Positions 45,288-64,000 of a stretch of 64,000 nt of DNA are shown in pieces. The notes under the pieces were generated by a model. It made no database searches and had not been told where the DNA came from. It worked only from the letters and a program-made list of their open reading frames with translations. The position numbers and the translations under genes were made by a program. This stretch comes from Planctomycetota bacterium. Its GTDB lineage: Bacteria > Planctomycetota > Phycisphaerae > Tepidisphaerales > Tepidisphaeraceae. Location: positions 62,001 to 126,000 of the forward strand of contig JAPLNB010000361.1 of assembly GCA_026693085.1 (NCBI GenBank), given 5' to 3'. How positions within the stretch are numbered: position 1 is the stretch's first letter; each line of letters opens with the position of its first letter.

Positions 45288-48266
45288 ATGAAGAGAACTT
45301 TTGTCCAAAGCGCGCTGATGCTTCTGATGCTTCTGGGAACGACTTACGCCCAATATCCGGGCTGGCAGCATTCCGGCTCCATCTACATCCTCACGACGCC
45401 CGAAGGGGCGAATCTGCCGGCATCGGCTTCGGAAGATGGGTTTCCGTTGCTGGTGCGGCTGCACAAGGACTTCTTCGATTTCAGCCAGGCGAAGGCGCAG
45501 GGCGAGGACATCCGTTTTTCCACCAGCGTAGGCGTACCCCTGGCATATCAGATTGAGGAATGGGACGCGGCCGGCGGAGCCGCCAGCATCTGGGTGAGAA
45601 TACCAACCATCAAAGGCAACTCGCGTCAGGAGGTCAAGCTGCACTGGGGGAAAGCCGACGCTGGCAGTGAATCCAGCGGGAAACCGGTATTCAATGAATC
45701 TAACGGATACCTGAGCGTCTGGCATATGAACGATCCGGTGAAGGATGAAGTGGGCACGCTGGAGTCGAAGGATGTGGGCACGACGGCGACTACGGGGGTG
45801 GTCGGGCAGGCGCGGCATTTTGCGGGGAAGCAGGGAGTTTTCGGCGGGGATAAGATTGCCGATTATCCGTCGGGCGCGAGTTCGCACAGCTCGGAAGCGT
45901 GGTTCCGTCCGGAGAAGCCGAATGGCAGAGTCCTCGCTTGGGGCAACGAGCAGGCGCAGGGCAAAGTGGTGATGCATTATCTCAGCCCGCCACACGTGAA
46001 AATGGAATGTTACTTTTCAGGCGCAGATGTTGCAGGCAGCAGCACGATCCCCATGACCCAATGGGTTCACGTGGTCAATACCTATCAGAAGGGCGATTCG
46101 CGAGTCTATGTGAATGGCGTCCTCGACGGAGTCTCGACGACCCCGTCGGCCCCGTTGTCGATCAAGAGTCCGGCGAGAATGTGGATTGGCGGCTGGTATA
46201 GCGTTTACGATTTTGTCGGCGATATCGACGAGGTGCGCATTTCCAAAGTAACCCGCTCGGCGGACTGGATCAGGCTGCAATATGAAAACCAGAATCCGCT
46301 GCAAACCCTGGTCGGTCCAGTGATGCAGCCGGGCAATGAATTCTCGGTTTCACAGACGCAAATAGCCGTGTTGGAGGGGAAGAGCACGACGGTGTCGGCC
46401 AAGGCCGGAGGCGCGCAAAAAATCTATTGGATCCTCAAGAGAGACGGCAAGGAAACTGTTGCCGCCACAGACCGGTACAACTTCACTCTTGATGCCGGCA
46501 GAGTGCTGGGGGATCAATCGCTCACCCTCGAGTTCAAAGCCATCTTTGCCACTGAAACCAGAACCCGGGACATACCCATCACGATCAAAGAAGACATCCC
46601 CGATCCGGTCTGCACCCTAGAAGCTCCGGCAACCTGGGATGGCCGCGAGACGATCGAGGTCGTACCGCAGGTCGCAAATAGGAGCGAAATGCAGGTCAAA
46701 GGTGTGGGCGATCTGAAGTACACCTGGACCGTTTCGGATATCGCGGTCATCAAGGACATCGCGCCCGGAAAACTCATCCTCAAGCGCGCGCAGAACAGCG
46801 GGAAGCTGACGATCACTCTGGCGGTCAACAACGGCGGCGTACAGACCGTTAATACCACCACGATTCTGGTCAATGAACCCCAAGAAGAGGTGTGGGCGGA
46901 GCGGATACCCGCCAAGGATGAGAAGCCGGAGGACAATCAGTTCTATGCCCGTGATGACAGGAATGAAGGCACTCTCTACTACAACGGCACCTTGAACGAA
47001 GCCGCCGACTCCGTCTTCCTGAAGGTGTATGCCGGGGATCAGTTGTACAAGAGCGAAAGCCGGAAATTGCCCGCCGAGAAGGCCTATGCGTTCTCGGTGA
47101 AGCTCAAGCCGGGTCTTGTCAAGTACAAGGCGGAGTTTGGCTCCATGACCGGCGACCGCCAGACGGTGCTGCACACGGCCAGCAATCTGGTCTGCGGCGA
47201 TGCCTACCTCATCAATGGACAATCCAATGCCGACGCGACCGATATTGGGAAAGAGACGTACACTTACAGCAGCGATTGGATTCGCACCTATGGGAGCATG
47301 GCGGGCGGAGGCCCAGACGCGCGGATGAAACGGTGGGGCCATGCGGTCTTTCGTGATAACGGGAGGTTACAGGTTGGATATTGGGGCATGGAACTCGGCA
47401 GGCGACTGGTGGAAAGCCGGCAGATGCCGACATGCATCATCAACGGTGCGGTGGGTGGAAGCAGGATCGATCAACACCAGCGGAACCCGGCAGACCCTGA
47501 GAACGTGGAAACGATTTACGGACGACTGCTATGGCGCGTCAGGCAAGCCAGGCTGGCGCACGGAATCCGGGGCGTATTGTGGCACCAAGGCGAAAACGAC
47601 CAGGGCGCCGATGGTCCCACCGGCCGGTATGGCTGGGAAACTTACCAGCAGTACTTCATCGATATGTCGGCCGCATGGAAACAGGATTACCCGAATATCC
47701 AACACTACTACATCTTCCAGATCTGGCCCAAGTCGTGCTCGATGGGCGTAAACGGATCTGACAATGTGCTCCGGGAGGTGCAACGGACGTTGCCGTCCTG
47801 CTTCTCCAACATGAGCATCATGTCCACCCTCGGCATCAAGCCCCCCGGCTACGCCCATTATCCCGCTGCCGGCTACGCGGAATTCGCGCGATTGATATGC
47901 CCGCTGGTCGAGCGGGACAACCACGGGAAGGTGTTCACCAGGTCCATCACGCCCCCAGACATCAAGAAGGCGTACTTCACCAGCGACAGCAAGGATGAGA
48001 TCGCTTTGGAATTTGACCAACCCATGGCATGGAACAACTCATTGACGAGTCAGTTCTATCTGGATGGGGCGGCGAAGAACGTGATCGGGGGCGCGCTGTC
48101 CGGACACGTGATTACACTGAAGTTGAAGGGGGCCTCTTCGGCACAGAAGATCACTTATCTTGATAGCGCATCGTGGAGTGTTGACAACCTTCTTTACGGA
48201 GAGAACGGCATTGCCGCCCTCACGTTCTATAATGTGCCGATCCTTCCCAGGAAGCCGTTGCCCTGA
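45288..48266 (+). CDS. Secreted DUF2341/LamG protein with C-terminal sialate-O-acetylesterase-like (SGNH) domain
   Basis: 992 residues with signal peptide (MKRTFVQSALMLLMLLGTTYA) and GAGGA 8 nt before the ATG. Residues 20-120 (FPLLVRLHKDFFDFSQAKAQ, GEDIRFSTS, IEEWDAAGGAASIWVRIP) form a DUF2341 domain. Residues 145-345 form a LamG/concanavalin-like domain (GDIDEVRISKVTRSADWIRL). Two Ig-like regions follow. From about residue 645, CGDAYLINGQSNADATD, INGAVGGSRIDQH and GVLWHQGENDQG form the SGNH esterase blocks, with Ser in GQSN. It probably removes acetyl groups from extracellular sugars. Its paralogue lies at 51236-53224. Confidence 0.82.
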   Translation: MKRTFVQSALMLLMLLGTTYAQYPGWQHSGSIYILTTPEGANLPASASEDGFPLLVRLHKDFFDFSQAKAQGEDIRFSTSVGVPLAYQIEEWDAAGGAASIWVRIPTIKGNSRQEVKLHWGKADAGSESSGKPVFNESNGYLSVWHMNDPVKDEVGTLESKDVGTTATTGVVGQARHFAGKQGVFGGDKIADYPSGASSHSSEAWFRPEKPNGRVLAWGNEQAQGKVVMHYLSPPHVKMECYFSGADVAGSSTIPMTQWVHVVNTYQKGDSRVYVNGVLDGVSTTPSAPLSIKSPARMWIGGWYSVYDFVGDIDEVRISKVTRSADWIRLQYENQNPLQTLVGPVMQPGNEFSVSQTQIAVLEGKSTTVSAKAGGAQKIYWILKRDGKETVAATDRYNFTLDAGRVLGDQSLTLEFKAIFATETRTRDIPITIKEDIPDPVCTLEAPATWDGRETIEVVPQVANRSEMQVKGVGDLKYTWTVSDIAVIKDIAPGKLILKRAQNSGKLTITLAVNNGGVQTVNTTTILVNEPQEEVWAERIPAKDEKPEDNQFYARDDRNEGTLYYNGTLNEAADSVFLKVYAGDQLYKSESRKLPAEKAYAFSVKLKPGLVKYKAEFGSMTGDRQTVLHTASNLVCGDAYLINGQSNADATDIGKETYTYSSDWIRTYGSMAGGGPDARMKRWGHAVFRDNGRLQVGYWGMELGRRLVESRQMPTCIINGAVGGSRIDQHQRNPADPENVETIYGRLLWRVRQARLAHGIRGVLWHQGENDQGADGPTGRYGWETYQQYFIDMSAAWKQDYPNIQHYYIFQIWPKSCSMGVNGSDNVLREVQRTLPSCFSNMSIMSTLGIKPPGYAHYPAAGYAEFARLICPLVERDNHGKVFTRSITPPDIKKAYFTSDSKDEIALEFDQPMAWNNSLTSQFYLDGAAKNVIGGALSGHVITLKLKGASSAQKITYLDSASWSVDNLLYGENGIAALTFYNVPILPRKPLP

Positions 48267-51235: not shown

Positions 51236-53224
51236 ATGAACAAGAAACTGATCCTACTCGCCAGCGCTTTGCTCGCTGGCTTCGCGCATCAGGCCTTTGC
51301 CCAGTATCCCGGTTGGCAGCATGAAGGCTCCATATTCATTCTCACAACGCCCGAGGGGGCGAACTTGCCGGCGACGGCGTTGGAACACAACTTCCCGTTG
51401 TTGGTGCGCTTGAACAAAGGAGTTTTCGATTTTAGCCATGCCAAGCCGAATGGCGATGACATCCGCTTTTCCGAAAAGGGCAAAGCCCTGGCCTATCAGG
51501 TGGAGGAGTGGGACGCGGCGAACGGCGCCGCCAGCATCTGGGTGCGCATCCCGGTTATCAAGGGCAATGCGCGCCAGGGAATCAAATTGCATTGGGGCAG
51601 GGCCGATGCCGTCAGCGAATCTAACGGGTCCGCGGTCTTCAATCCCGACAATGGCTATGCCACGGTCATGCACATGGACGAGGCACTGAAGGATGAACTC
51701 GACACGCTTACGCCGAAGGATGCGGGGTCGGCCACGGCGGGTGGGATAGTCGGCGAGGGCCGGCATTTCATACCGGGCAAGGGGATCAATGGCGGCGATC
51801 ACGTCACCAACTATCCCTACAGCGACAACCCGTTCACGTCCGAAGCCTGGGTCCGAGCAGAAGCCCCCGGGGCGCCGATCTTTGGCTGGGGGAGGTATGC
51901 CACGCGGCTCAACGGCAAGACCGGGGATGGCAATGAGGTGGTGCTTTATGTGGGATCACCGCCGCGTCTTTCCTGGGCTTCCGATGGTCCTGGTGGTGCT
52001 ACCGCCGGCACAGCGCCCGTTATGAGGCAGTGGAATCATGTGGCTGCGACGTATTCAAATGGGACCAGCCAGATCTATGTGAATGGCAAGCTCGATGGAA
52101 GCAATTATCATCGCGCTGCGATGTCCATGGTGCGAGATGTCTGTATGACCATTGGCGGAATGCGGGGTAGTTACGAGTTCGCCGGCGACATCGACGAAGT
52201 GCGCGTCTCGCGGGTTGCGCGCTCCGCCGACTGGATCAAGCTGGAATACGAAAACCAGAAAGCCCTGCAAACCCTGGTCGGCACCTTGGTGCAGCCGGGC
52301 AATGCCTTTTCGGCCTCGCCGACGGAGATCAAGGTTGCTGAGGGCAAGAGTGCGACCGTCACGGCTCAGGCCGGGGGCGCCGAGAAGGTTTATTGGATTC
52401 TCAAGCGAGATGGCGCGGATGCCATCGTCGCCGTGGACCAGTATTCGTACACCCTCGATGCCGGCCGGGTGGTGGCTGATACAGCGTTTGTTCTCCAGTT
52501 CAAGGCGATTTGCGCCAATGAGGTCAAGATCCGGAACATTCCCGTGACGATCAAGGAGGAGATTCCCGAACCGGTGTTTACCCTGAGAGCGCCCGCAGCC
52601 TGGAATGGCCGGGACACCATTGAAGTTGTGCCTGCGATCAGCAATCTCACCGCGATGAAGGCCAAAGGCGCGGGAGCATTGAATTATAAGTGGCTCGTCT
52701 CCGGTGGCGCCGTGATCAAAGAAGCGGTCACCGGCAAACTGATGCTCAAGCGATCGCAATGCGGCGGCAAGATTACCGTCAAGTTGGCGATCAATAACGG
52801 CGGCGCGGATTTTGCCGCCACGACGTCGATTGTGGTGACTGAGCCGAAGAGTGATCCTTGGGTCCAGAGGACTCCCGGGAAGGACGAGAAACCCGAGGAT
52901 AATCAGTTCTATGCCCGCGACAACAGGAACGAGGGCACGCTTTATTACAACGGAACGCTGGACCGAGCCGCCGACTCCGTGTTTCTCAGAGTTCTTGCGG
53001 ACGACAAGATCTTCAAGGCCGAACGCCAACAACTCACCCCCGACAGAGCCTATGCGTTTGCGGTCAAGCTCAAGCCGGGTTTGATCAAGTACAAAGTGGA
53101 GTTCGGAACCAAGTCCGGCGGCACTGAAACGGTATTGAACACCGTTGCGCCCCCACGCCAACCGCCGACGCCACCGCGACTTACGAAAACGCCACGAAAA
53201 AAGTGTCACCTCCTGTGTCAGTAG
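51236..53224 (+). CDS. Paralogue of the DUF2341/LamG protein, truncated at the mobile-element edge
   Basis: 662 codons with TAGGAAA before the ATG and a signal peptide (LILLASALLAGFAHQAFAQ). It is collinear with the first 640 residues of the 45288-48266 protein (YPGWQHEGSIFILTTPEGAN, FAGDIDEVRVSRVARSADWI, PEDNQFYARDNRNEGTLYYN). At VEFGTKSGGTETVLNTV the homology ends, where the paralogue goes on into its SGNH esterase domain. The last 24 residues (PPRQPPTPPRLTKTPRKKC and on) are read out of frame from integrase-tail DNA. The esterase domain is therefore lost, probably through insertion and deletion. Confidence 0.8.
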   Translation: MNKKLILLASALLAGFAHQAFAQYPGWQHEGSIFILTTPEGANLPATALEHNFPLLVRLNKGVFDFSHAKPNGDDIRFSEKGKALAYQVEEWDAANGAASIWVRIPVIKGNARQGIKLHWGRADAVSESNGSAVFNPDNGYATVMHMDEALKDELDTLTPKDAGSATAGGIVGEGRHFIPGKGINGGDHVTNYPYSDNPFTSEAWVRAEAPGAPIFGWGRYATRLNGKTGDGNEVVLYVGSPPRLSWASDGPGGATAGTAPVMRQWNHVAATYSNGTSQIYVNGKLDGSNYHRAAMSMVRDVCMTIGGMRGSYEFAGDIDEVRVSRVARSADWIKLEYENQKALQTLVGTLVQPGNAFSASPTEIKVAEGKSATVTAQAGGAEKVYWILKRDGADAIVAVDQYSYTLDAGRVVADTAFVLQFKAICANEVKIRNIPVTIKEEIPEPVFTLRAPAAWNGRDTIEVVPAISNLTAMKAKGAGALNYKWLVSGGAVIKEAVTGKLMLKRSQCGGKITVKLAINNGGADFAATTSIVVTEPKSDPWVQRTPGKDEKPEDNQFYARDNRNEGTLYYNGTLDRAADSVFLRVLADDKIFKAERQQLTPDRAYAFAVKLKPGLIKYKVEFGTKSGGTETVLNTVAPPRQPPTPPRLTKTPRKKCHLLCQ

Positions 53225-53415
53225 CATCGCGCACTTCACCCCTGCCCACCCCCACCAACAACCCCCGACAGTTACCTAATTCGGTAGGCCGTGGGGGTGG
53301 GGAGGCTGCCCCTGTCGATGCCGACTTGGCGGACGCGGTGAGGGCATGGCTGAAGCTGTCACCGGCAAAGCGAGAAGTATTTTTGATCCTGATCCGTGGG
53401 GGTGGTAAAATCTGA
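53155..53415 (+). pseudogene. Tyrosine-integrase C-terminal tail remnant
   Basis: A frame overlapping the end of the LamG gene reads ADATATYENATKKVSPPVSV, then a Pro/Thr linker (SPLPTPTNNPRQLP) and ends DLADAVRAWLKLSPAKREVF, a helix typical of the end of planctomycete integrases. There is no catalytic part. The V-S-P-P-V-S portion lies exactly on the left 22-bp repeat and is in the same reading phase as in the right-end integrase. The part after the repeat is most simply the original tail of the element's own integrase; the part before it belongs to the target. Confidence 0.6.
53203..53224 (+). repeat. Left attachment-like repeat (attL)
   Basis: 22-bp sequence beginning GTGTCACC, with T at position 9, then CCTGTGTCA, G and TAG. 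It differs from the right copy only at positions 9 and 19. It contains two internal GTGTCA units 12 bp apart, as in core sites flanked by recombinase half-sites. It encodes V-S-P-P-V-S in the integrase-tail frame. Confidence 0.75.
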
Positions 53416-53454
53416 ACACGGGCGGGCGAGGGTTGCTCCTCGCTAAATGGCTTG

Positions 53455-53492
53455 ATCCGGCCGTGGTCTACTCACCGTCTTCCACGGCGGAT
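53455..53492 (+). promoter_or_regulatory. Hairpin near the left end of the element
   Basis: Arms ATCCGGCCGTGG (53455-53466) and CCACGGCGGAT (53482-53492) pair over 11 bp with one bulged G; loop 15 nt. There is no T-run after it. It sits between the integrase-tail stop and the first element gene, so it could be a terminator of a Rho-independent-poor type, an operator or a recombination accessory site. Confidence 0.5.
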
Positions 53493-53521
53493 CTGGCCTG
53501 CCCAATAGAAAGACGGTGCAA

Positions 53522-54196
53522 ATGAAACGCGACAACCAACAGGTGGACGGGGCGGCCGAACAATTCAGAAGCTTTGCAAGGCATATTCACGATGCAGAAA
53601 AACGAATAGCCCCGTGCAACCAACCGCCACCGCTGGGCTACTTCACTTTTGATAAAGTACGGGCAATGGCCGGCCGGATATTCCTTGAGGCTATGCGGTT
53701 GGGCATTCTAAACGACCCCGAACACACACTGCTTCGCCTTGATCTGGAAGACGTGCAAAAACACGAACTCGCGGGCGGGCCGGACGCTGTTCCGCAAACA
53801 GTCTGCGTAAAGGCGGCGGAGTATCTCATCGCGCGATCAAGCGGCGGGCAATCAAGCGGGGCGTCTCAGCTTTTTACCCTCTGCGGACTCAAAGGCCACT
53901 TCGACGAAGTGACGAGATTGGCGTGTGTTGCCATCGCCGAGTTTCTGGACGAAGCAGCCGCAAAGACACAGGGAAATAAGCCCGCTGTGGGCGAGGGGAA
54001 AGCGTCCCCTTGCCAAATCCGAGCGCTACAGCAGTACCAGGACGCGATAGCGACCGACCCCCGCTTGCAGCGGAAGGATTGCCAGACGGTGTACAAATCC
54101 GTCGAGGCCCGCGTTAAATCATTCGGGAATCCGAATGACCTGCCCGACTTCAACACTTGGACTCGATACGTCCGTGCCGCGCGGAAGAAACTTTAG
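53522..54196 (+). CDS. Element protein of unknown function
   Basis: 224 residues from ATG 53522 (GTG 53516 is also in frame). Mostly helical, with patches FTFDKVRAMAGRIFLEAMRL and LQQYQDAIATDPRLQRKDCQ and TVYKSVEARVKSF. The last part resembles a helical DNA-binding tail but no clear HTH is recognised. First gene of the element; its stop is followed by structured regulatory DNA. Confidence 0.65.
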   Translation: MKRDNQQVDGAAEQFRSFARHIHDAEKRIAPCNQPPPLGYFTFDKVRAMAGRIFLEAMRLGILNDPEHTLLRLDLEDVQKHELAGGPDAVPQTVCVKAAEYLIARSSGGQSSGASQLFTLCGLKGHFDEVTRLACVAIAEFLDEAAAKTQGNKPAVGEGKASPCQIRALQQYQDAIATDPRLQRKDCQTVYKSVEARVKSFGNPNDLPDFNTWTRYVRAARKKL

Positions 54197-54213
54197 AGCG
54201 CGGACAAAAACGG

Positions 54214-54242
54214 ATAACCAAGCGGATATCCGTTCTGGTTAT
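54214..54242 (+). promoter_or_regulatory. Nested inverted repeats upstream of the HTH gene
   Basis: Outer arms ATAACCA (54214-54220) and TGGTTAT (54236-54242) enclose the perfect palindrome CGGATATCCG (54223-54232). AACGGATA and TATCCGTT also pair as an alternative stem. Such dyads are typical operators of small HTH regulators, or could terminate the preceding transcript. Confidence 0.6.
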
Positions 54243-54275
54243 TTCCCCAGAAAAAGCACGTCTTTTCATACTATC

Positions 54276-54341
54276 CGGTCTCTCCGTTCCCGTAAGGGTA
54301 GGCGGCCGCCACGTTGGTGGTCACCACAACCGGAGAGACCG
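54276..54341 (+). promoter_or_regulatory. Inverted repeat masking a ribosome binding site
   Basis: Perfect 11-bp arms CGGTCTCTCCG (54276-54286) and CGGAGAGACCG (54331-54341) enclose 44 nt that include the palindrome GGCGGCCGCC and a GTTGGTGGTCACCACAAC dyad. The right arm contains the GGAG Shine-Dalgarno of the ATG at 54344, so folding would hide it. This suggests translational control or protein-bound operator control of the HTH gene. Confidence 0.65.
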
Positions 54342-54343
54342 AA

Positions 54344-54553
54344 ATGTTGTACTTGTCCGTCTCAGACGTTGCTCGTCAAATCGGAGCGAACCCCCGCGAC
54401 ATCTCGGATCTTTTCTACCGCCGAGAGCTGCGCGACGATCTGTGCCCGATCATTGGCCGTCAGCGACTCATTCCACCCGATTACGTTCCGATGATCCGCA
54501 TGGCGTTGAAGCGGAACGGCCGGCCAGTGGGGACGGAGGTGGGCTGTGGGTGA
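54344..54553 (+). CDS. Small HTH (MerR/excisionase-like) protein
   Basis: 69 residues from ATG 54344. LSVSDVARQIGANPRDISDL and FYRRELRDDLCPIIGRQRLI show the winged-helix pattern of excisionase/MerR-type small proteins. It precedes a second HTH protein with an 8-nt overlap, so both are probably coexpressed. Likely roles are excisionase or element regulator. Confidence 0.72.
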   Translation: MLYLSVSDVARQIGANPRDISDLFYRRELRDDLCPIIGRQRLIPPDYVPMIRMALKRNGRPVGTEVGCG

Positions 54554-54779
54554 AGTGTTGACCGCCCCCGGTGTTTTGGCCGTCGATATTTCAGGCGCGG
54601 CGGCGCTACTGAGCATTTCGCCGAGTCACCTGTTCCAACTTCAGCGCGCCGGGAAATTCGGACCGGCCGGTTTCAGGCTCGGACGATCGCGCAGGTTTCT
54701 TGTCGAAGAATTGCGGCAATGGTGCGCAGCGGGCTGCCCGAGCGCGGCGCAGTGGCGGCCAAAAGGGGGCGGGCGATGA
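54546..54779 (+). CDS. Second HTH_17-type excisionase-like protein
   Basis: 77 residues from GTG 54546, overlapping the preceding gene by 8 nt. VDISGAAALLSISPSHLFQL and GKFGPAGFRLGRSRRFLVEE form the typical recognition-helix plus wing of the HTH_17 excisionase family, with ELRQWCAAGCP at the end. Candidate recombination directionality factor for the right-end integrase. Confidence 0.8.
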   Translation: MGEVLTAPGVLAVDISGAAALLSISPSHLFQLQRAGKFGPAGFRLGRSRRFLVEELRQWCAAGCPSAAQWRPKGGGR

Positions 54780-54871
54780 CTATCCACGAAAAAGCCCCCG
54801 CTGGCGGCGAGGGCGGAAAAGATCGGACGCGCTCAGTATACCACAGCCAGAGCGGGGTGGCCAATGGATAG
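54776..54871 (+). CDS. Candidate 31-residue peptide in the element operon
   Basis: ATG 54776 overlaps the preceding stop by 4 nt (ATGA), and its TAG overlaps the start of the primase gene. The product starts MTIHEKAPAGGEGGKDRTRS. The overlaps on both sides and the GGGGGCGGGC upstream argue for translation, at least as a coupling leader; no domain is recognised. Confidence 0.35.
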   Translation: MTIHEKAPAGGEGGKDRTRSVYHSQSGVANG

Positions 54872-57206
54872 CACACAGTGGCCCAAAGTCACGAAAGAAA
54901 AGCCCTGCCCCGTCTGCCGAAAAGCCGACTGGTGTAGGTTGTCTGGTGACGGCGAGGTGGCGTTGTGCGCGCGGATCGAGCAAGGGAGTTTCCAGAAGGC
55001 CAAGGGCAATGGCGGCTGGCTGCATCGGCTGAAAGACTCGCCCGACTACCACGGCGGCAACAGTCAGCATCGACCCGCGCCCAAGTCCACGCCGAAGACA
55101 CCGAAAATCCACGCCAGCATAGAGGCAGCGATCGCGGCGGCGAAGTGGCAAGTCCAGACGGCCGAAAAGCAAACCGCGACACTGGCCGGCGAGTGGCTGT
55201 ACAGCGTCGGCGGCGTGGAGGTGATGAGGGTGGTGCGGTTCAATCTCGCGGACGGGGAAAAGCAATTCAGGCCGATCTATCCAGCCGCGGGCGGGTGGCG
55301 CATCGGCGATCCGCCTGGACCCTTGCCCCTCTACCGGAGTGACGAGCTGCCGGCGCCGGGAACGGTATGGGTTCTGGAGGGCGAGCGGTGTGCGGACGCT
55401 GGGGCGGGGCTGGGGCTGGCGGCAACGACTTCCGCACATGGCTCGGCATCGGCCGCGAAAACCGACTGGACGCCACTTGCCGAGAAACAGGTGTGCATCC
55501 TCCCCGACGCCGATGCGGCTGGCGAAAAGTACGCGGCGGACGTGTCGCGGATTCTGATCGGCTTGACCCCGCCCGCCCGCGTCAAGGTATTGCGTCTGCC
55601 GGGGCTGGCTGCCAACAGTGGCGAGGATCTTGTCCAATGGCTCGAGCGCGAAGGCCGCGACGGTCGGGAGACAGAAGCGATCCGGGCCGAAATCGAGGCA
55701 CTGGCGGCCGCGCTGCCTTATGAGGAACCGGAACCGACTAGCAACGTCGCGGGTCGATTGATAATGGTGTGTGCAGCGGACGTGATCGAAAAAACCATCG
55801 ACTGGACTTGGCCACCTCGCATACCGTCCGGCGCGATTACACTTTTCACGGGCCGGCCAAAAGAGGGCAAGAGTCTGACGGCGAATGACATAGCCGCAAG
55901 AATTTCGACCGGCACACCGTTTCCCGACGGCGCACCATGCCGTCAAGGTTCGGTTATTTTGGTTGCACCAGAAGACGATATCGAACGGGTGGCAGTGCCA
56001 CGATTGAGGGTTGCTGGCGCTGACTTGCGGAAAGTCCACTTTGTAACTTACCTGCGCCGCGTTGACGCTGAGGGCAAACCATACGATGTTCAATTCTCAT
56101 TGCAGCACATGGCCGCGCTCGAGGTGGAGGCCAAGAGGCATCCTGACCTGCGCATGATTGTGATTGACCCCATCGGCGACGTTCTGGGCGGCGGGGTTGA
56201 TAGTCACCGGGACAACGAAGTCAGAGCGATTCTCGCCCCACTGGCAAACTTGGCGGAGCGGCTGGGAGTGGCGGTGCTGGTGATTGCGCACCGACGCAAA
56301 GCCAACGGTGCGTTCGCGGACGATCTGACGTTGGGGAGCCGCGCGTTCTCAGGGCTGGCCCGCGCCAACTGGCATATAAGCAAAGACCCACTAAACAAGG
56401 CCCGGCGTCTATTCCTGCCCGGCGGTTGCAACTACGCAGGCGAGGTGACCGGGTTGGCGTTCACCATCATTGGCGACAATGGCGAGCCGCCGAAGCTTTC
56501 ATGGGAGCGGGATGCCGTGCTGCTAGACGCCGACGACGGTTTGGCAGCGGAGAATTCTGAGGACGGGCGCGGCCGGCCGGCGGATGAGCGAGAAGCGGCC
56601 GAAGCCTGGCTGGCAGAATTGCTGAAGGATGGAGAGGTCCTGGCGGCGACGATTAAGGCGGAAGCGAAGGATGCGGGCTTTGCTTGGCGGACGGTTCATC
56701 GGGCCGCCGATGCTCTGGGGGTGATCCGGGAGAAAAACGGGTTTACTGTGGGGTGGCAATGGCGATTTCCCAAAATGGGCAACACGCCGAAGGTGCCAAT
56801 GAAAACCCCTGACACAGTGAATATGGCATCTTCGTTTGTAAGGGACCCATATGTACTTACTACTACTATACTTAGTCCGAAGGTGCCACGTGCCATAAAT
56901 AAAGAGTCAGGGAAGTATGTGGCATCTTCGGCGGATGAGGGGCGAATTAGGCAAAAGTTATATGGCTTGGCGCGGGAACTGAACTGGCCAGCGGCGATGC
57001 TGGCCGGCAAAAGCGAACCCTTCACGGAAGCCAACTGGCTTACCTTGTCCAACGATGCACCCCTGGCCGACGTTGAACGCGAGGTTGACCGGCTGGAGGG
57101 ACTGGCGAAGGCGGACAACGAGAAGCAGACGCCGGCGGACGATGACGGCGAGGAGCTTGCCGAGTGGCGGGAGCGGGTGTTGGCGGGCGAAGGGGGTGAG
57201 GCATGA
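54864..57206 (+). CDS. Primase-helicase (zinc finger, TOPRIM, RepA/AAA_25 ATPase)
   Basis: 780 residues. An N-terminal zinc finger (CPVCRKADWC, then CARIE) is followed by a TOPRIM domain with VLEGERCADAGAGLGL near 168 and CILPDADAAGEKYAADV near 210. The RepA/DnaB-like ATPase has ITLFTGRPKEGKSLTAND (Walker A, near 330) and MIVIDPIGDVLGGGVDSHRD (Walker B, near 430). The C-terminal 200 residues include a winged-helix-like region (DAGFAWRTVHRAADALGVI). It should prime and unwind element DNA for replication, as in phage and satellite elements. Its stop overlaps the next start by 4 nt. Confidence 0.9.
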   Translation: MDSTQWPKVTKEKPCPVCRKADWCRLSGDGEVALCARIEQGSFQKAKGNGGWLHRLKDSPDYHGGNSQHRPAPKSTPKTPKIHASIEAAIAAAKWQVQTAEKQTATLAGEWLYSVGGVEVMRVVRFNLADGEKQFRPIYPAAGGWRIGDPPGPLPLYRSDELPAPGTVWVLEGERCADAGAGLGLAATTSAHGSASAAKTDWTPLAEKQVCILPDADAAGEKYAADVSRILIGLTPPARVKVLRLPGLAANSGEDLVQWLEREGRDGRETEAIRAEIEALAAALPYEEPEPTSNVAGRLIMVCAADVIEKTIDWTWPPRIPSGAITLFTGRPKEGKSLTANDIAARISTGTPFPDGAPCRQGSVILVAPEDDIERVAVPRLRVAGADLRKVHFVTYLRRVDAEGKPYDVQFSLQHMAALEVEAKRHPDLRMIVIDPIGDVLGGGVDSHRDNEVRAILAPLANLAERLGVAVLVIAHRRKANGAFADDLTLGSRAFSGLARANWHISKDPLNKARRLFLPGGCNYAGEVTGLAFTIIGDNGEPPKLSWERDAVLLDADDGLAAENSEDGRGRPADEREAAEAWLAELLKDGEVLAATIKAEAKDAGFAWRTVHRAADALGVIREKNGFTVGWQWRFPKMGNTPKVPMKTPDTVNMASSFVRDPYVLTTTILSPKVPRAINKESGKYVASSADEGRIRQKLYGLARELNWPAAMLAGKSEPFTEANWLTLSNDAPLADVEREVDRLEGLAKADNEKQTPADDDGEELAEWRERVLAGEGGEA

Positions 57207-57424
57207 GCGAACGATGGACGCTGGTATTCAAGGCTGAAGGCGACGGGCCGCCGGTCGAGGTTCGCGTGAGGAATTTACTAAAGAGGGCGTTGAGGACTTG
57301 GGGCTTGAGGTGTACCGGGTTCGGGCCAGATACACCGTCCCCAGCATCCGAGCCGACTGTTGAGTCGGTTGAGGTTGAAAGACGCGACACCGGCAACCCA
57401 CCAGACGAAAGCGAGACTTTATGA
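57203..57424 (+). CDS. Small element protein
   Basis: 73 residues starting MSERWTLVFKAEGDGPPVEV, with a short predicted helix RNLLKRALRTWGLRC. It overlaps the primase by 4 nt and the following gene by 4 nt. Unknown function; similar short proteins after primases are common in planctomycete integrative elements. Confidence 0.65.
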   Translation: MSERWTLVFKAEGDGPPVEVRVRNLLKRALRTWGLRCTGFGPDTPSPASEPTVESVEVERRDTGNPPDESETL

Positions 57425-57741
57425 GCAAGCATTTACCACCGTCACCTACGGACAATGGCGGACGTGACGATTTGGGCCGGTTCGGACCCCACAATTCCTT
57501 CGGTGTCGGGAATCGGCGGTTGAACCAGCGGGTACAGCAGATCCGCGCCGCGCTTCTGGAGGCCGTGTCGGCGGACGATGTTCGCGCGGCGACCCGGATG
57601 ATGGTCAAGCTGGCGGTGGCCGGCGATCGCGCCGCGTTCGCCGAACTGCTGGACCGCACCATCGGCAAGCCAGTGGCATCGGACCTGTTGCAGCGTATCG
57701 AGCGACTTGAGCAACTTTTGGACAACCCAGAAAGCGAGTGA
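57421..57741 (+). CDS. DUF5681-like small protein
   Basis: 106 residues. GRDDLGRFGPHNSFGVGNRR is the N-terminal signature seen in DUF5681-type proteins that sit near terminase or replication genes. The rest is helical (IRAALLEAVSADDVRAATRM, MVKLAVAGDRAAFAELLDRT) and ends in a short coiled coil. Possible DNA-packaging or DNA-binding adaptor, but no terminase is present nearby. Confidence 0.7.
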   Translation: MSKHLPPSPTDNGGRDDLGRFGPHNSFGVGNRRLNQRVQQIRAALLEAVSADDVRAATRMMVKLAVAGDRAAFAELLDRTIGKPVASDLLQRIERLEQLLDNPESE

Positions 57742-57744
57742 CCC

Positions 57745-58020
57745 ATGCAACGACTGACCGACCTGGAGCGTAGGCTTGCCGCGCGTAACGCAAAGGCGGA
57801 GCTGTTGGCGATGCTGAAGGAATGGGACAACGAGCTTTTGCGTCGGCGAGCGATACCTCTTCCAAGTGAAGAATTCATGGCCGGCGTGGATATCCCCGCT
57901 TCTGTCACGATGTGGCACGCGGTCCCCGAAGGAAGAAAAATCGGGCTGGTAATGAACGATGGCTCGATCGCCACCTGGTCAGAAATTATTGCGACAGATA
58001 AGGCAGGACCGGCGAAGTAG
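57745..58020 (+). CDS. Hypothetical element protein
   Basis: 91 residues, N-terminal helix (LTDLERRLAARNAKAELLAM) and a beta-rich C-terminal half (SVTMWHAVPEGRKIGLVMND). Starts 3 nt after the DUF5681-like stop. No family recognised. Confidence 0.6.
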   Translation: MQRLTDLERRLAARNAKAELLAMLKEWDNELLRRRAIPLPSEEFMAGVDIPASVTMWHAVPEGRKIGLVMNDGSIATWSEIIATDKAGPAK

Positions 58021-58079
58021 CCGGCCAGAACGATAAACCAGCGGTCCAGAGCGATCGCACATCAATGAGGAAAAAGACG

Positions 58080-58724
58080 ATGAACATTTTTACTATGTTG
58101 CGGGGTGGGATAACCAAAACGCGAACTGAGGCGCTGAAGGCGTATTCTGAATTGCTCAGCCGCTCTGCCGACGATCCGAAACGCGGCGACGCTGAGAGGT
58201 TGAAGGCGCTGCTGGAAGCGCTCGGCATTACCGTTGCGGATGCCGAACTGGACGCAGCGGCGGTGGCCGAGCTTGCGGCGGCACGGGCGAAGGTGATACC
58301 CGCCGCCGAACGGGTGAAGTTGCAGGAGGCGTGCTGTGAAGCCGACGCCGCAATCAAAACTGCAAAAGCGGCGTGGGAAGCGGAGGAAATTCGTCTAAAA
58401 TTATTGCTGTGGGAGGCGCAAGATCGGGTTACGATTGCGGCACACGCCGAGGCCGAGGCCGAGCAGCTCACCCAGCGAGTTCTGCGCGAGCGCCCGCGCG
58501 CCCTCGGTCAGGAGCTGGAGTTGAAGCCGGCGTTGAAGCCGCCGGTCGATAATACTCGCGTTCTCGTTTCACCCAGCTTCCCCCAAGCGCTGGAACCGCT
58601 TATCCCCGCGAGCGTTTTGGCGGAGGCGAAGAAGCAGGGACGGTTGGTGGTAGGTCTGGGCGATGGGCGCTACAGCTATGCACCCAAACTCACACCAACC
58701 CCCGAACCGACGGCGGCGAAATGA
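58080..58724 (+). CDS. Coiled-coil element protein
   Basis: 214 residues from ATG 58080; an in-frame ATG at 58065 would add five. Almost entirely helical and Ala/Glu/Lys-rich, with ACCEADAAIKTAKAAWEAEE and RLKLLLWEAQDRVTIAAHAE. The C-terminal 50 residues are Pro-rich. The next frame starts with a 4-nt overlap (58721). Phage-scaffold-like composition, function unknown. Confidence 0.65.
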   Translation: MNIFTMLRGGITKTRTEALKAYSELLSRSADDPKRGDAERLKALLEALGITVADAELDAAAVAELAAARAKVIPAAERVKLQEACCEADAAIKTAKAAWEAEEIRLKLLLWEAQDRVTIAAHAEAEAEQLTQRVLRERPRALGQELELKPALKPPVDNTRVLVSPSFPQALEPLIPASVLAEAKKQGRLVVGLGDGRYSYAPKLTPTPEPTAAK

Positions 58725-58879
58725 ACGTACTGGACGCCGCTTGTTGCGGCGCTGCTGCAAACCGGCTTGGCGGTCGGTTTGTGGCTTTTAACGGGAAGGC
58801 TTCCGCGCCGACCTGTGTTCCGCCGCATCGTTTGACCGCCATGCGGCGAATTGTTCTTACAAGAAAGAGAGTTATCGAA

Positions 58880-59671
58880 ATGGCAAACGTCACCGCTACA
58901 TTCACAGAAATCGCCGGAAGTCCGCAAGAGGAGTCCAGCGGCCAAAGATTCCGCGCCACGCGAAGACTGCGCTGCGCATGGGCAGACCGCGAACTACTGC
59001 GCCAACAGCTTCTCGGCTTGGACATGGGATTCATTCAGATACCTGATCTGTACCTTGGCCATCCGGGCTGCTACGTTCGCAGCGTCGCCTCTGAGCCAGA
59101 AGGACATCTCATCAGGTCGCATCCTGTCGGTGGAGTCAACGTCTATGACACCGCACTCGTCACCGCCCAGTATGAGACGCCGTCGGGCGCTGGCAGCGCG
59201 TCAACGGACGATGGCGGGAGGGTGCTCATCGAGGAGGAGTTGACGCCGTCGGCGCAGGTCAAGGTGGGATCGGCAGCGGGCCTGTATTGGGCAGACGATA
59301 CACCACTGATCGCTTCCGAGGCCCCCGATTGGATACTGCGGTTCGTCGAATGGACCGTGACGTTTCATGGCTTGGAGGTGCTGCCTGTAAATATTTTCGC
59401 ATGGATGGGGTGCGTGAACAAGGATCCGGTTATCAGCAAGACATTGGGGATCACCTTCGAGGCGGGAAAGCTGCTGTTCAATGGTGGCCGGCCGCGTCGA
59501 ATCTTCACAGCGACCGGGGCGCAGGGCTGGTCACTGACGGAAGAGTTCACCTACAACCCGTTCGGATGGAACAAGTTCCCGCGCGGCGGGGAAGCGGTAG
59601 TAGAGGTGTTGTACGATGCTGAAGATGAGCTGTATGAGCCCTACCCGCCCGTCGATTTCACCAAACTTTGA
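58880..59671 (+). CDS. Phage-tail-like element protein
   Basis: 263 residues from ATG 58880 (AGAGAG upstream). A longer frame from ATG 58721 would overlap another frame encoding a possible membrane segment. Beta-rich, with DWILRFVEWTVTFHGLEVLP and FTYNPFGWNKFPRGGEAVVE near the C-terminus, the last block being shared by a family of planctomycete phage-like proteins. No known enzyme motif. Probably structural, but this is inferred from composition and context. Confidence 0.6.
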   Translation: MANVTATFTEIAGSPQEESSGQRFRATRRLRCAWADRELLRQQLLGLDMGFIQIPDLYLGHPGCYVRSVASEPEGHLIRSHPVGGVNVYDTALVTAQYETPSGAGSASTDDGGRVLIEEELTPSAQVKVGSAAGLYWADDTPLIASEAPDWILRFVEWTVTFHGLEVLPVNIFAWMGCVNKDPVISKTLGITFEAGKLLFNGGRPRRIFTATGAQGWSLTEEFTYNPFGWNKFPRGGEAVVEVLYDAEDELYEPYPPVDFTKL

Positions 59672-59773
59672 TGCCCCGAACCCACGGCAACTTGATACCT
59701 CTTGTGCCGCCTCCGCGGCCATCCGCCATTCCGTGCCTGACCGCGCGGGGTGGCTTTTGAAAGGGAGGCAGCA

Positions 59774-59977
59774 ATGGAAACCATGTGGCTCTCACGAAAA
59801 CACCCCGGCCGCCGTGCTCCCCATTTTGGCTATCGCATTCGTGAGTTGGAAATAGAGAACGGTGTACTTTTTCGGCGGAATGAGGAGCTGGCGGCTGAAC
59901 TAAGAGCGTCGCGGGCGCGGGAGAGATACCTGATCCGCAAGCTGGCGGAAGGTGACGGCAAGGGCAAGGAAAGGTAG
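59774..59977 (+). CDS. Small coiled-coil protein
   Basis: 67 residues from ATG 59774, preceded by AGGGAGG at 6 nt. FGYRIRELEIENGVLFRRNE followed by ELAAELRASRARERYLIRKL is a continuous coiled coil. Function unknown. Confidence 0.65.
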   Translation: METMWLSRKHPGRRAPHFGYRIRELEIENGVLFRRNEELAAELRASRARERYLIRKLAEGDGKGKER

Positions 59978-59987
59978 GCTTAGAACT

Positions 59988-60164
59988 ATGGGAACGAAGC
60001 AAAGCAAAACCCATTCGACGCACAGGGAGCCGGAGTATGTCCGCCGGAAACTGGCGGCGGCATACCGCAAGCGGGCTGCCGATCCAACGCTGAAGCCTCT
60101 TGAACGCGCAGAATTTGCCCGGATGGCAGAGGCATGGGCAAAAACACTGCCCAAAGAAAAATAA
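59988..60164 (+). CDS. Small basic protein
   Basis: 58 residues from ATG 59988, rich in Lys and Arg (KQSKTHSTHREPEYVRRKLA, AAYRKRAADPTLKPLERAEF). Helical; may bind nucleic acid. It ends 12 nt before the promoter of the serine recombinase. Confidence 0.55.
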   Translation: MGTKQSKTHSTHREPEYVRRKLAAAYRKRAADPTLKPLERAEFARMAEAWAKTLPKEK

Positions 60165-60175
60165 ATACAAATGCC

Positions 60176-60204
60176 TTGACGTTCGTGAAGGCATAGGTTA
60201 TACT
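60176..60204 (+). promoter_or_regulatory. Sigma-70-type promoter of the serine recombinase
   Basis: TTGACG (60176-60181), 17-nt spacer, TATACT (60199-60204). The expected start site, 6-7 nt downstream, coincides with the recombinase ATG at 60211, and there is no Shine-Dalgarno. The transcript is therefore probably leaderless. Confidence 0.8.
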
Positions 60205-60210
60205 ACTTCC

Positions 60211-60909
60211 ATGACGAAGCTGATTGCCTATTACCGGGTTTCCACAAAGAGGCAAGGCGATAGCGGGCTTGGGCTGGATGCCCAGCGTAAAGCCGTGGCC
60301 GATCATGCGGCCGCTGCCGATGCGACTGTCGAAGCCGGCTACACCGAAATTGAGAGCGGCACACGGGCGGATCGCCCCGAACTAGCCAAGGCCATTGCCC
60401 ATGCCCGGCGGAGTAAGGCCAAGCTGGTGATTGCCAAGCTGGACCGGCTGGCTCGCAACGTTGCCTTTGTGTCTGCCCTGATGGAAGCCGGCGTTGATTT
60501 CGTGGCGTGCGACAACCCCCACGCCAACCGCCTCACCATCCACATCCTGGCGGCGGTGTCGGAGGATGAGGCCCGGCGAATCAGCGAGCGCACAACGGCC
60601 GCTCTGGCGGCGACGAAGGCCAGAGGTACATTGCTCGGCTCGGCACGGCCGGGGCATTGGACGGGGCGCGAAGAGGCCCGGCTTGCTGGTGCAAGGCGAG
60701 GAAATAAACGCTCGGCAGAGGTGAGGGCGGCATCGGCGGTGGCGGCGGTGGCAGACTTGTTACCGTCGATACAACGGCGACGCGAAGCCGGCGAGAGCTT
60801 CGCCACAATCGCGGCGGCTTTGAATGCCGCCGGGCAGCGGACGGTACGCGGGGGTGAATGGGCGGCAACGCAGGTGAAGCGTGCGGTGGATCGCGGCGCG
60901 GGGAAGTAA
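60211..60909 (+). CDS. Small serine recombinase (resolvase/invertase family)
   Basis: 232 residues from ATG 60211. IAYYRVSTKRQGDSGLGLDA carries the nucleophilic Ser11; KLVIAKLDRLARNVAFVSAL gives the conserved arginines, and AAVSEDEARRISERTTAALA the long E-helix. The C-terminal 75 residues form an HTH-like DNA-binding domain (GESFATIAAALNAAGQRTVR). Resolvases of this type act on dimers or invert DNA segments; here it may resolve the element after replication. Its own promoter sets it apart from the upstream genes. Confidence 0.92.
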   Translation: MTKLIAYYRVSTKRQGDSGLGLDAQRKAVADHAAAADATVEAGYTEIESGTRADRPELAKAIAHARRSKAKLVIAKLDRLARNVAFVSALMEAGVDFVACDNPHANRLTIHILAAVSEDEARRISERTTAALAATKARGTLLGSARPGHWTGREEARLAGARRGNKRSAEVRAASAVAAVADLLPSIQRRREAGESFATIAAALNAAGQRTVRGGEWAATQVKRAVDRGAGK

Positions 60910-60932
60910 TCGGGTGGGAAGGAAGGAACAAC

Positions 60933-61187
60933 GTGAGTAATCGTATCCAAGAGCTGATGGAAGAGGTGTATGGCCCCGCCGCCCCATGCGATGAGGCGTT
61001 GCTCTCGGTCAAGCAGTACGCAAACGAACACGGCCTTCTCGTCTTCTACATGGTCATCATCGGCAGCGAGTATCAGCACATCGCCTATTGCGCCGCCCGG
61101 AACGCAGTCGATGCCTACGCCGTGGCTCTCCGCCGTGGGGTGGCCAGCGTCGGCGATGTGGTGCGCAGCGAGTGTATGGTGATTTGA
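60933..61187 (+). CDS. Hypothetical element protein
   Basis: 84 residues from GTG 60933 (GGAAGGA upstream). Starts VSNRIQELMEEVYGPAAPCD and has a helical core (QHIAYCAARNAVDAYAVALR). No family recognised. Confidence 0.6.
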   Translation: MSNRIQELMEEVYGPAAPCDEALLSVKQYANEHGLLVFYMVIIGSEYQHIAYCAARNAVDAYAVALRRGVASVGDVVRSECMVI

Positions 61188-61220
61188 GTCGATGGGGCGA
61201 AGCAAAAAGGAGATTACATC

Positions 61221-61631
61221 ATGGAGAAGTTGCCGTTAGGTGAAGTGGCGGAGTTTGCCGACGATCTGAAACGCTTTGGGGAAAGGGTGGTCCGGGAATC
61301 GTGCCGAGCGCTGAAGATTCCGCCGAATGCCGTTGCGTGCTGGCCGGCCGGGGCGGATTGGCCCATCTTTGTGGATGAGAGGCGGGCGTATTGCCCACAC
61401 TGCGGGCGAGGGTTCAGGTACATGGGGCCGCTACATCACCACCTCGATTGGGAGCACAAGGACAAGGCGACTGCGAACGCGATTCCATACGGGGCCAAGT
61501 TGGCGGAGTTGTTCCTGGCAGGCACGCGAGCCGAAGCGATCCGCCGGCAAATGAACGCTACGGGGAATGATGGTGCACCGCCAGCAAAAGGACGGCGGAC
61601 GAAACTGGAATCAGGTGACGGTGAAGTATGA
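61221..61631 (+). CDS. Zinc-finger protein
   Basis: 136 residues with AAGGAG 8 nt before the ATG. YCPHCGRGFRYMGPLHHHLD then WEH gives a C2H2-type finger (CxxC, HxxxDWEH), and helices lie on both sides. It might be a DNA- or RNA-binding regulator of the element. C-terminal 40 residues are basic and Gly-rich. Confidence 0.7.
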   Translation: MEKLPLGEVAEFADDLKRFGERVVRESCRALKIPPNAVACWPAGADWPIFVDERRAYCPHCGRGFRYMGPLHHHLDWEHKDKATANAIPYGAKLAELFLAGTRAEAIRRQMNATGNDGAPPAKGRRTKLESGDGEV

Positions 61632-61735
61632 GCGTAGCCGACGTGGCGACGCTGTTCTGTGCGGACGCAGCAGCGTGCGTCCTAGACCATATACGGTCGA
61701 AAGGAACAGACGATGGATGCAAACAGATGGATTAG
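61628..61735 (+). CDS. Candidate 35-residue peptide overlapping the zinc-finger gene
   Basis: ATG 61628 overlaps the zinc-finger stop by 4 nt (ATGA). Reads MSVADVATLFCADAAACVLD and ends at 61735. A short helical peptide; coding status rests only on the overlap and composition. Confidence 0.35.
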   Translation: MSVADVATLFCADAAACVLDHIRSKGTDDGCKQMD

Positions 61736-61769
61736 CGTGGAGGATCGGCTGCCGGAGCCGCCAGAGTAA
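61713..61769 (+). pseudogene. Remnant of a DUF551-like gene
   Basis: ATG 61713 with AAGGA 8 nt upstream encodes MDANRWISVEDRLPEPPE and then stops. WISVEDRLPEP is the start signature of DUF551 proteins found in phages. Only 18 codons remain, so the gene is truncated. Confidence 0.5.
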
Positions 61770-61855
61770 AGGGCGCGGAGGAAACAGGAACGGGTGACGT
61801 TGAACGACGGGGCGATAGGCGAAAGACGCGGGATAACCGCAGAAGGAAAGGCATC

Positions 61856-62437
61856 GTGACTGAATCAACAGCAACCGTGGAGCAAGTGTCTGGGCCAACA
61901 GGCGAATGGGAGGATGTGTCGGTTCGCGAGGCTACGGGCGGTGGGCTGGGCAAGCGCCTTCCAAAGAGCAAGGTGATTGCACTGGCTCGCCCTGGGATGG
62001 TCGTCGAAGTCGCCAACGGCGGCGATGGGCTGGGCATCATCGAAACCATTACTTCCGACTTCGCCATCGTCCGATTTGAAGACGGGCGAGTGGAGACTTT
62101 CTATTGGGGGGAGGTAAGCTTGGAGGCCGTGGCGCCCGACCCCGCCTACATCGCCCGCACTCCGGGAGACGATGGGCTGAAGCTGGGGAAAGATGCGAGC
62201 AAGGTTCTAGGGTTGGCCCGTCGGCTGGCGAGCGTCATACAGGACTTTTCCAATTTGGAGACGGAAAGCGAATGCCAAGCGACTATCACCGAGTCTTATG
62301 AGCCGATGATGCTGAATTTGGAAAAGGCATATAAGGCGCTTTGGCAGCTGGCGGGGAAAGAACTACTGATTCAAGACTCCGATGAGGCGAGCAGCCCCGC
62401 GCCACGAAACGAAGGTCCGGCGGTAGACCCGGCGTAG
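61856..62437 (+). CDS. Hypothetical element protein
   Basis: 193 residues from GTG 61856 (AAGGAAAGG upstream). The N-terminal 90 residues look like a small beta-barrel (GMVVEVANGGDGLGIIETIT, FAIVRFEDGRVETFYWGEVS), resembling a KOW/SH3-type fold. The C-terminal part is helical. Function unknown. Confidence 0.65.
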   Translation: MTESTATVEQVSGPTGEWEDVSVREATGGGLGKRLPKSKVIALARPGMVVEVANGGDGLGIIETITSDFAIVRFEDGRVETFYWGEVSLEAVAPDPAYIARTPGDDGLKLGKDASKVLGLARRLASVIQDFSNLETESECQATITESYEPMMLNLEKAYKALWQLAGKELLIQDSDEASSPAPRNEGPAVDPA

Positions 62438-62463
62438 GCAACGGGGCAGTAAGGTGGTGAAGC

Positions 62464-64000
62464 ATGAAGGTACGCAAGCTGGTGGTGACGGAAACGGACG
62501 CGGACGGCAAGCGGATCAAACGGCCATCCACGAAATTCTACGGCGTGTTCGTTGACTGGAGCGGCGGGCTGCGCCGCTTGCCGTTGCTGGAGAATCGGCG
62601 GGCGAGCGAGGTGTTGGCGCGGACCGTTGACCGGCTGAACAACGTGCGGGCCGGCGGCGACGTGTTGACCCCCGACCTGGCGGAAGCGGTGGAGAAGATG
62701 CCCCCTTCCATCCTGGCGAGGCTGGGGGAGTGGGGGATCCTGTCGGGGATGCGGTTGGCGGCGGGGAAGGGCTTGGCGGAGCATGTGGCCGACTGGAAAG
62801 CGGCGTTGCTGGCGAAGGGCGGTACGGATCGGTATGCGGAGCTTGTCACCAGCCGGGCCGGGAAGGCATTTGCGGCGTGTGGCTTTAAGCAGTGGGGCGA
62901 CATATCCGCCAGCCGACTGCAGGGGCATCTTGCCGGGCTGCGGACGGATCGGCGGAAGGCCGATGGGAGCATAGAGCGGGGCTTGTCCGCTCAGACGTTC
63001 AATTTCTACCTGCAGGCCGTCAAGCAATTCTCGCGGTGGATGGTACAGGACGGCCGGGCAACCGAAAGCGCCCTGGCCCACTTGCGGGGCTTGAACGTGC
63101 GGACGGATCGGCGGCATGATCGGCGCGCATTGTCCGCCGATGAGTTACGCTGGTTGTTGGACACAACCGAACACGGGCCAGAGCGTTTTGGGATGAGCGG
63201 GCCGGCGAGGGCGATGCTGTACGGGCTGGCGGTGGGGAGCGGGCTTCGGGCAGGCGAGCTTCGCAGTTTGACGCGCTCGAGCTTTCGCCTTGAAGGCGCG
63301 GAGCCGGCCGTGGTGGTGGCGGCGGCATACTCCAAGCATCGACGGCAGGACGTACAACCGATCCGCCCAGACCTGGCGGCGCTGCTGAAAACCCACCTCG
63401 CCGGGAAGATGCCCAACGCCCTCGCATTCAACGTGCCTGGGCGCACCGACGTTTCCCGCATGTTCCAAGCCGATCTTGCCGATGCCCGTAGAGCATGGCT
63501 GCAATCGCGTAGGATGCCCGCCAGCACGCCCAGGACCGCTCAGGACGCATCGGAAGGCGAGGGGGATACATTTCTGGCCTACATCGACGCCGCGGGCCGC
63601 TACGCCGACTTCCACAGCCTACGCCATTCATTCATCACAGCACTGGTGATGGGCGGGGTGAATCCCAAAGAGGCGCAGAGTTTGGCCCGCCATTCCGTGA
63701 TTACGCTTACGATGGATCGCTACACCCACCAGTACGCGGGCAATCTCACGGCGGCGCTGAGCGTACTACCGGACCTGTCCAGCCCCAACAGCCAAACGGC
63801 GAGGGCGACAGGGACGGATGGCAGGCTGGCCGGCGGAAACCCCTCTTGTCAGAATCCTGTTTTTCCTGTGTCACCCCCTGTGTCACTAGAAGGCGCAGTT
63901 TCAAGTAGCTTGGTGGAGTCTTGCGGAGTCGATAAGCAAATGTCCGCAAGTGCAGAATCGCCCGGTAAAACAGGGCGAAATCGTGCATTTACAGGGGTTA
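62464..64000 (+). CDS. Tyrosine integrase (partial, 3' end outside window)
   Basis: 512 codons from ATG 62464 with no stop before the window edge. Tyrosine-recombinase residues are visible: Arg in GLAVGSGLRAGELRSL (about 260), HSLRHSFITALVMGG (His/Arg, about 384), LARHSVITLTMDRYTHQYAG (His and nucleophilic Tyr, about 420). The N-terminal half has the SAM-like core-binding domain (LSAQTFNFYLQAVKQFSRWM). After the catalytic part the frame crosses the right 22-bp repeat (VFPVSPPVSLEGAVSSSLVE), so the present C-terminal tail is encoded by target DNA. Confidence 0.92.
   Translation, partial: MKVRKLVVTETDADGKRIKRPSTKFYGVFVDWSGGLRRLPLLENRRASEVLARTVDRLNNVRAGGDVLTPDLAEAVEKMPPSILARLGEWGILSGMRLAAGKGLAEHVADWKAALLAKGGTDRYAELVTSRAGKAFAACGFKQWGDISASRLQGHLAGLRTDRRKADGSIERGLSAQTFNFYLQAVKQFSRWMVQDGRATESALAHLRGLNVRTDRRHDRRALSADELRWLLDTTEHGPERFGMSGPARAMLYGLAVGSGLRAGELRSLTRSSFRLEGAEPAVVVAAAYSKHRRQDVQPIRPDLAALLKTHLAGKMPNALAFNVPGRTDVSRMFQADLADARRAWLQSRRMPASTPRTAQDASEGEGDTFLAYIDAAGRYADFHSLRHSFITALVMGGVNPKEAQSLARHSVITLTMDRYTHQYAGNLTAALSVLPDLSSPNSQTARATGTDGRLAGGNPSCQNPVFPVSPPVSLEGAVSSSLVESCGVDKQMSASAESPGKTGRNRAFTGV
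63868..63889 (+). repeat. Right attachment-like repeat (attR)
   Basis: Copy of the left 22-bp repeat with C at position 9 and C at position 19. It lies inside the integrase frame and encodes V-S-P-P-V-S in the same phase as the left copy. Confidence 0.75.

Follow-up and report, generated by a model that had tools for sequence, protein, structure and literature searches.

Few elements are described as having their attachment site within the integrase gene that they themselves carry (PMC4701971), and self-disrupting recombinases are regarded in one review as exclusive to archaea (PMC8371274). In the Myxococcus phage Mx8, attP is located inside int and integration creates a new 3' end of the gene, by which 112 C-terminal residues are replaced by 13 (Tojo 1996 and Magrini 1999, as cited in PMC6070905 and PMC4701971). 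These two citing papers characterize the modified integrase as less active (PMC4701971) or as altered in specificity (PMC6070905). The archaeal suicidal integrases of SSV1, pTN3 and pT26-2 are split on integration into two inactive parts (PMC8371274).

We have analysed a 64,000-nucleotide stretch of planctomycete DNA (G000:C361:62001-126000, hereafter the window), with attR and the 3' end of the integrase gene taken from the same contig beyond the window end (L010). The best explanation of the locus as a whole, to which we assign a probability of roughly 0.8, is a 10.9-kb integrative element with attP in the 3' part of its integrase gene, the tail of which is cut off on integration. According to this model, the whole attachment region, consisting of an arm pair, the core and a second arm pair, would lie inside the 3' part of the tyrosine integrase gene, and the full-length integrase specified by the free circle would measure ~620 aa, with a conserved tail at its end. 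The gene would be cut by recombination at the core, such that the integrated copy would be a 531-aa form stopping at attR, with the tail codons stranded at attL without a recognisable start, and excision would restore the integrase gene. Loss of the tail may alter integrase activity, integration being favoured or excision requiring help, as reported for Mx8.

The arrangement resembles that of Mx8 in combining a tyrosine integrase with attP inside its gene, C-terminal replacement, a tRNA-like peptide and flanking short repeats. In the Mx8 sequence (AF396866), the tRNA-like peptide is found inside Int and the 9-mer GTGACAGCG, present only three times in 49.5 kb, occurs on both sides of the peptide. 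The Mx8 tail, however, is not homologous, the tail profiles A2 and A3 described below giving no match to it, and Mx8 is a single phage whereas many elements of 7-38 kb are observed here, which target various tRNAs or, in the case of the window element, a protein gene. As read from the sequence, the arrangement is one predicted to work like Mx8, with an unrelated tail. In mycobacteriophage BPs, the altered protein is reportedly a repressor and not an integrase. Integration-dependent immunity in this phage shares with the present locus an attP within a gene, such that the protein differs between the free and integrated forms (PMC4557955). The archaeal suicidal integrases likewise have attP within an integrase gene that is split by integration (PMC8371274); whereas their catalytic part is separated from the N-terminal part, here the catalytic domain remains whole within the 531-aa form, upstream of attR, and the tail alone is lost. 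Streptococcal rumA ICEs share the reciprocal exchange of 3' ends between integrase and target gene but employ serine integrases and one protein gene as target (PMC4701971). No description of the arrangement in planctomycetes was found in the literature searched, which is weak evidence of novelty as subscription papers were mostly outside the search.

Element ends and target gene

The initial annotation took two 22-bp repeats as attL and attR and proposed that the target is itself an older integrase gene. The repeats, GTGTCACC[T/C]CCTGTGTCA[G/C]TAG, are genuine (Table 1), being identical at 20 of 22 positions, a match not reached in any of 100 shuffles of the window, and both copies code for VSPPVS, the right copy in the integrase frame and the left copy in an ORF reading VSPPVSVASRT...DLADAVRAWLKLSPAKREVF. 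Recombination at these repeats is nevertheless very improbable, even though they exceed chance and encode the same peptide. Three more integrase copies or fragments in the same genome (contigs C204, C211 and C253) carry the 22-bp sequence at the same place, and the protein beyond it (LEGAVSSSLVESCGVDK...) is closely conserved in C204 and C211 and more loosely in C253, the copies diverging only beyond this stretch. This conservation rules out the repeats as the crossover. The C253 copy runs into a tRNA-Ser gene detected by ARAGORN and the C204 copy into an apparent truncated tRNA, recognised by eye, at the contig end. Equivalent repeats also lie inside the att sites of ten other elements, and a repeat located outside the 22-bp pair restores an intact gene.

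This second repeat, the 16-bp GGTATTGAACACCGTT, is the sole exact repeat of at least 13 bp found to be shared by the 3' region of the integrase gene and the DNA upstream, and its two copies are taken as the att core. Together with the attL flank, the core reads AACGGT-ATTGAAC-ACCGTT, in which inverted arms surround a 7-bp centre, as is typical of a tyrosine recombinase core. The corrected element thus extends from 53131 to about 64057, beyond the window end, and measures 10,911 bp start to start.

Joining of the outer flanks at GGTATTGAACACCGTT produces an open reading frame of 1394 codons encoding a LamG/DUF2341-SASA-like protein, not the integrase-like tail previously proposed for these flanks. 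The 3' part of the target gene resumes at 64058 and includes a GQSNA esterase-like region identified by reading the sequence. A 256-aa stretch spanning the junction matches four uninterrupted genes with 51-61% identity and aligns straight across the junction, which replaces the older integrase gene as target with a LamG/DUF2341-SASA-like gene. One of the four is a paralogue in the same genome, 60% identical, located ~5 kb upstream in the same window (47031-47747). The open joined frame, its domains and the straight alignment with intact homologues indicate that the target is probably a carbohydrate-related gene, disrupted by the element. When the same genome was searched for a tRNA-Ser-like anticodon arm identical to the window core, four matches were obtained, attL itself being among them. 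The sole tRNA gene in the window is a tRNA-Arg(TCT) at 17956-18031, for which no link to the element was seen.

Table 1. Positions of the element, its attachment site and the disrupted target gene in the window.
Feature	Position	Strand	Evidence or remark
Target gene 5' part (DUF2341 + LamG), disrupted	51236..53146	+	Pfam PF10102, PF13385; open joined frame
attL core GGTATTGAACACCGTT	53131..53146	+	Sole exact repeat of at least 13 bp; attR twin at 64042-64057 in L010
Orphan integrase tail, 89 aa + stop	53146..53415	+	Translation of predicted circle
22-bp repeat, left copy, 56 bp inside attL	53203..53224	+	12-bp-spaced unit pair; proposed arm-type site
Conserved tail motif DLADAVRAWLKLSPAKREVFLILIRGGGKI	53314..53412	+	Tail profile A3; related motif in own genome and other elements
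HTH protein, possible excisionase	54546..54779	+	PF12728 at its cut-off; PHROG 66 excisionase, E=2.9e-4
Primase/helicase-like AAA_25 protein	54864..57206	+	PF13481; phrog_239
Small serine recombinase (resolvase/invertase)	60211..60909	+	PF00239; phrog_125
Tyrosine integrase gene	62464..64000, ORF on to 64059, stop at attR	+	PF00589, residues 223-424; 3' end from L010
22-bp repeat, right copy, in integrase gene, 174 bp before attR core	63868..63889	+	Proposed arm-type site

Besides the tyrosine integrase, the element encodes an HTH protein, a primase/helicase and a small serine recombinase. Among the element proteins scanned against Pfam and PHROG, no capsid gene was recognised. The integrase is identified as a tyrosine site-specific integrase by a PF00589 match above cut-off (E=1.2e-13). 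Searches with it in collections of genome contigs, plasmids and viral contigs returned no match.

Integrase tail in the predicted circle

In the predicted circle, the integrase frame crosses the core, where GIEHR is followed by CAPTPT..., and is extended by 89 residues that end in RGGGKI, such that the full-length protein would terminate in ...DLADAVRAWLKLSPAKREVFLILIRGGGKI. The earlier suggestion that the orphan left tail joins the integrase in the circular form therefore holds at the corrected att site, and it also holds in ten further elements; in all of these and in the window, the predicted circle has the core within the integrase ORF, and integration changes the C-terminus. The associated claim that integration swaps the 3' end of the integrase gene is likewise supported. 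In the window, the end gained is just a stop codon, the target DNA supplying the remainder of a TAA codon, so that the integrated integrase stops at attR and integration acts as truncation.

Comparison of the tail with homologues, a check which the initial annotation had named, revealed conserved and coding-biased tails in other elements. Among six alignable tails, differences at codon positions 1, 2 and 3 number 155, 99 and 236, respectively, in 435 pairwise codon comparisons, and amino-acid identity is 0.57 in the integrase frame as opposed to 0.35 in the two other frames. By this measure, the tail is under protein-level constraint and is evidently coding. The similarity between the window tail and the others is no more than distant, 12/27 identical residues being the best match, and the window motif scored above all 5000 shuffles against both the G025C42 motif and a second motif from its own genome, while 3/5000 shuffles reached the score obtained against two other motifs and 19/5000 that against one other. 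A second orphan tail in the same genome, DLADLVAAWPDVPAAKRAGILAIVRTA at G000:C298:20040-20135 (L023), is preceded in frame by the tRNA-like peptide RGFEPSAD. No Pfam family was detected above cut-off in the tail, and the G213 tail gave no match in phage records.

Related elements

Integrases of the order and class were followed upstream for attR-attL repeats, elements being chosen by these repeats and not by reading frame. Eleven single-contig elements of 7-38 kb, including that in the window, yielded predicted circles with an integrase frame that reads on into a tail. In the ten non-window elements the core consists of tRNA sequence, of which 21-46 bp were used. G265C12, the twelfth element, shares the spacing of att and arm repeats, but translation in its integrase frame would end ahead of attR. 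In-frame read-through into the tail is therefore observed in 11 of 12 elements with mapped ends, for which the probability by chance, at one in three, is ~5e-5. The count leaves out six integrases with long C-termini, which had no convincing att repeat within the DNA examined. Three repeats were not taken as att, namely a 129-bp repeat 1.35 kb apart in G016C111, a GC-rich 16-mer repeat in G133C17 and, in G144C1a, a repeat consisting of a second integrase copy. There are also related integrases whose C-termini are short and for which no tail was detected. Profile A1 found no relative in viral contigs and three loci in genome contigs, corresponding to G008, G106 and G013.

These observations bear on whether the left ORF is instead a separate small gene which agrees in frame with the integrase by chance. 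Although the window ORF is short and has in-frame GTG codons, the frame agreement just described is difficult to reconcile with such a gene. Four elements lack any in-frame start codon between attL and the tail motif, no Shine-Dalgarno-like match precedes the orphan tail in the remaining elements that do have start codons, and integrase and tail are contiguous in one frame at two loci considered below. A separate gene is consequently very improbable, and the orphan frame is better read as the severed integrase tail.

In G201:C57, three att copies are present at 6632, 22053 and 29318 of the oriented stretch, and in G118:C46 a decayed integrase end immediately precedes the tail, which suggests repeated insertion at one tRNA gene. 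The stacking of elements foreseen in the initial annotation thus receives partial support only, from the one contig with three att copies and from others with decayed neighbours at the same site. In L049 (G025:C42), the integrated integrase ORF contains the restored tRNA-Ser gene in sense orientation (16338-16426); that tRNA processing might cut the integrase mRNA there is speculation.

The 22-bp repeats as candidate arm sites

Both 22-bp copies in the window contain CCTGTGTCA(C/G)-like units spaced 12 bp apart. In all 11 mapped elements, the best shared 22-mer precedes the attR core by 146-177 bp and lies inside attL by 53-59 bp (80 bp in one), ranges that include the window distances (Table 1). 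Arm-pair identity exceeded all 30 shuffles in 10 of the 11, while that of G118C21 tied with its shuffled controls; short repeated sites at set distances around the core are thus present in 11 elements, with this single tie. In G213C12, the arm DNA encodes LVPTLVP in the integrase but NACTNACT in the tail, and likewise in its relatives. As the same DNA is read there as different peptides, the feature kept at the arm pairs seems to be DNA rather than peptide. The 22-bp repeats are probably arm-type integrase sites, to which the integrase would bind.

Distribution of the tail across the class

Tail profile A2 matched 31 of 396 class genomes (E <= 0.001). The more general profile A3, built from four tails including that of the window, matched 201 of 396 genomes and 155 of 273 genera (E <= 0.01), a figure that includes weak single matches taken as listed. 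In a phylum scan at a much stricter cut-off, A3 matched 9 of 342, which is not comparable with the class figure. Roughly one in two of the class genomes sampled thus contains traces of the attP-in-integrase arrangement.

Nearly all of the tail matches examined are orphan frames, many of them preceded by tRNA-derived peptide. Among 87 tail-bearing ORFs, some counted twice owing to overlapping loci, two have an in-frame upstream recombinase signature (L222 and L225), and 54 fit a loose tRNA-peptide pattern, a raw count uncorrected for chance matches. In L222, the contiguous integrase-tail frame is followed by a long element-like gene, while in L225 the integrase is incomplete and the frame adjoins chromosomal-looking genes; neither contig is circular as judged by end overlap. 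The two loci establish that integrase, tRNA-like segment and tail can form one frame, which falls short of proof of a free circle.

Tail-like motifs also end other proteins, including an AEP-TOTE primase (L224, G350:C76), a Ser/Thr protein kinase (L221, G138:C13) and, by a weak match (E=2e-4), a Prim-Pol primase (L230, G106:C57). The tail motif may be a wider C-terminal module.

Discussion

The site, the split gene, the in-frame continuity, the conserved tail and the repeated arm geometry are features of the sequence itself, and from them a circle would be expected to form. Counting against an attP in the integrase gene with loss of the tail on integration are the frame break in G265C12, the non-circular contigs of L222 and L225 and the distance of the window tail from the others. 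The likeliest function of the arrangement is that of a switch, in which full-length integrase would be produced from the circle and a shortened form from the chromosome, and changed activity after integration is plausible by analogy with Mx8. Conservation of a tail that would be attached to the enzyme solely in the free state suggests a role for it in that state. Extended to the class, the conserved tail, joined only while the element is free, would constitute a state switch in which the protein reports the integration state and helps to set the direction of recombination, a reading held tentatively, at somewhat below even odds.

Alternatively, the split may be real but have no regulatory role, with attP in the gene just ensuring that the site stays with the gene, and with a catalytic part indifferent to the tail. 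We consider this unlikely. Such indifference would suit an integrase whose whole Pfam domain is encoded upstream of attR, as it would the tailless relatives with short C-termini; it leaves unexplained the protein-level constraint on a tail that the integrase would possess only in the free element, and it is at odds with Mx8, the altered integrase of which is described as having lower activity (PMC4701971) or a different specificity (PMC6070905).

Because the arrangement appears across the class, at a variety of targets and with the tail conserved, a regulatory role of integrase tail loss becomes testable by comparison. The arrangement explains annotated integrases that end in a tRNA-derived peptide and short orphan ORFs located beside tRNA fragments. 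Most entries for these integrases in sequence databases would then represent the truncated form, which matters for the choice of integrases as tools.
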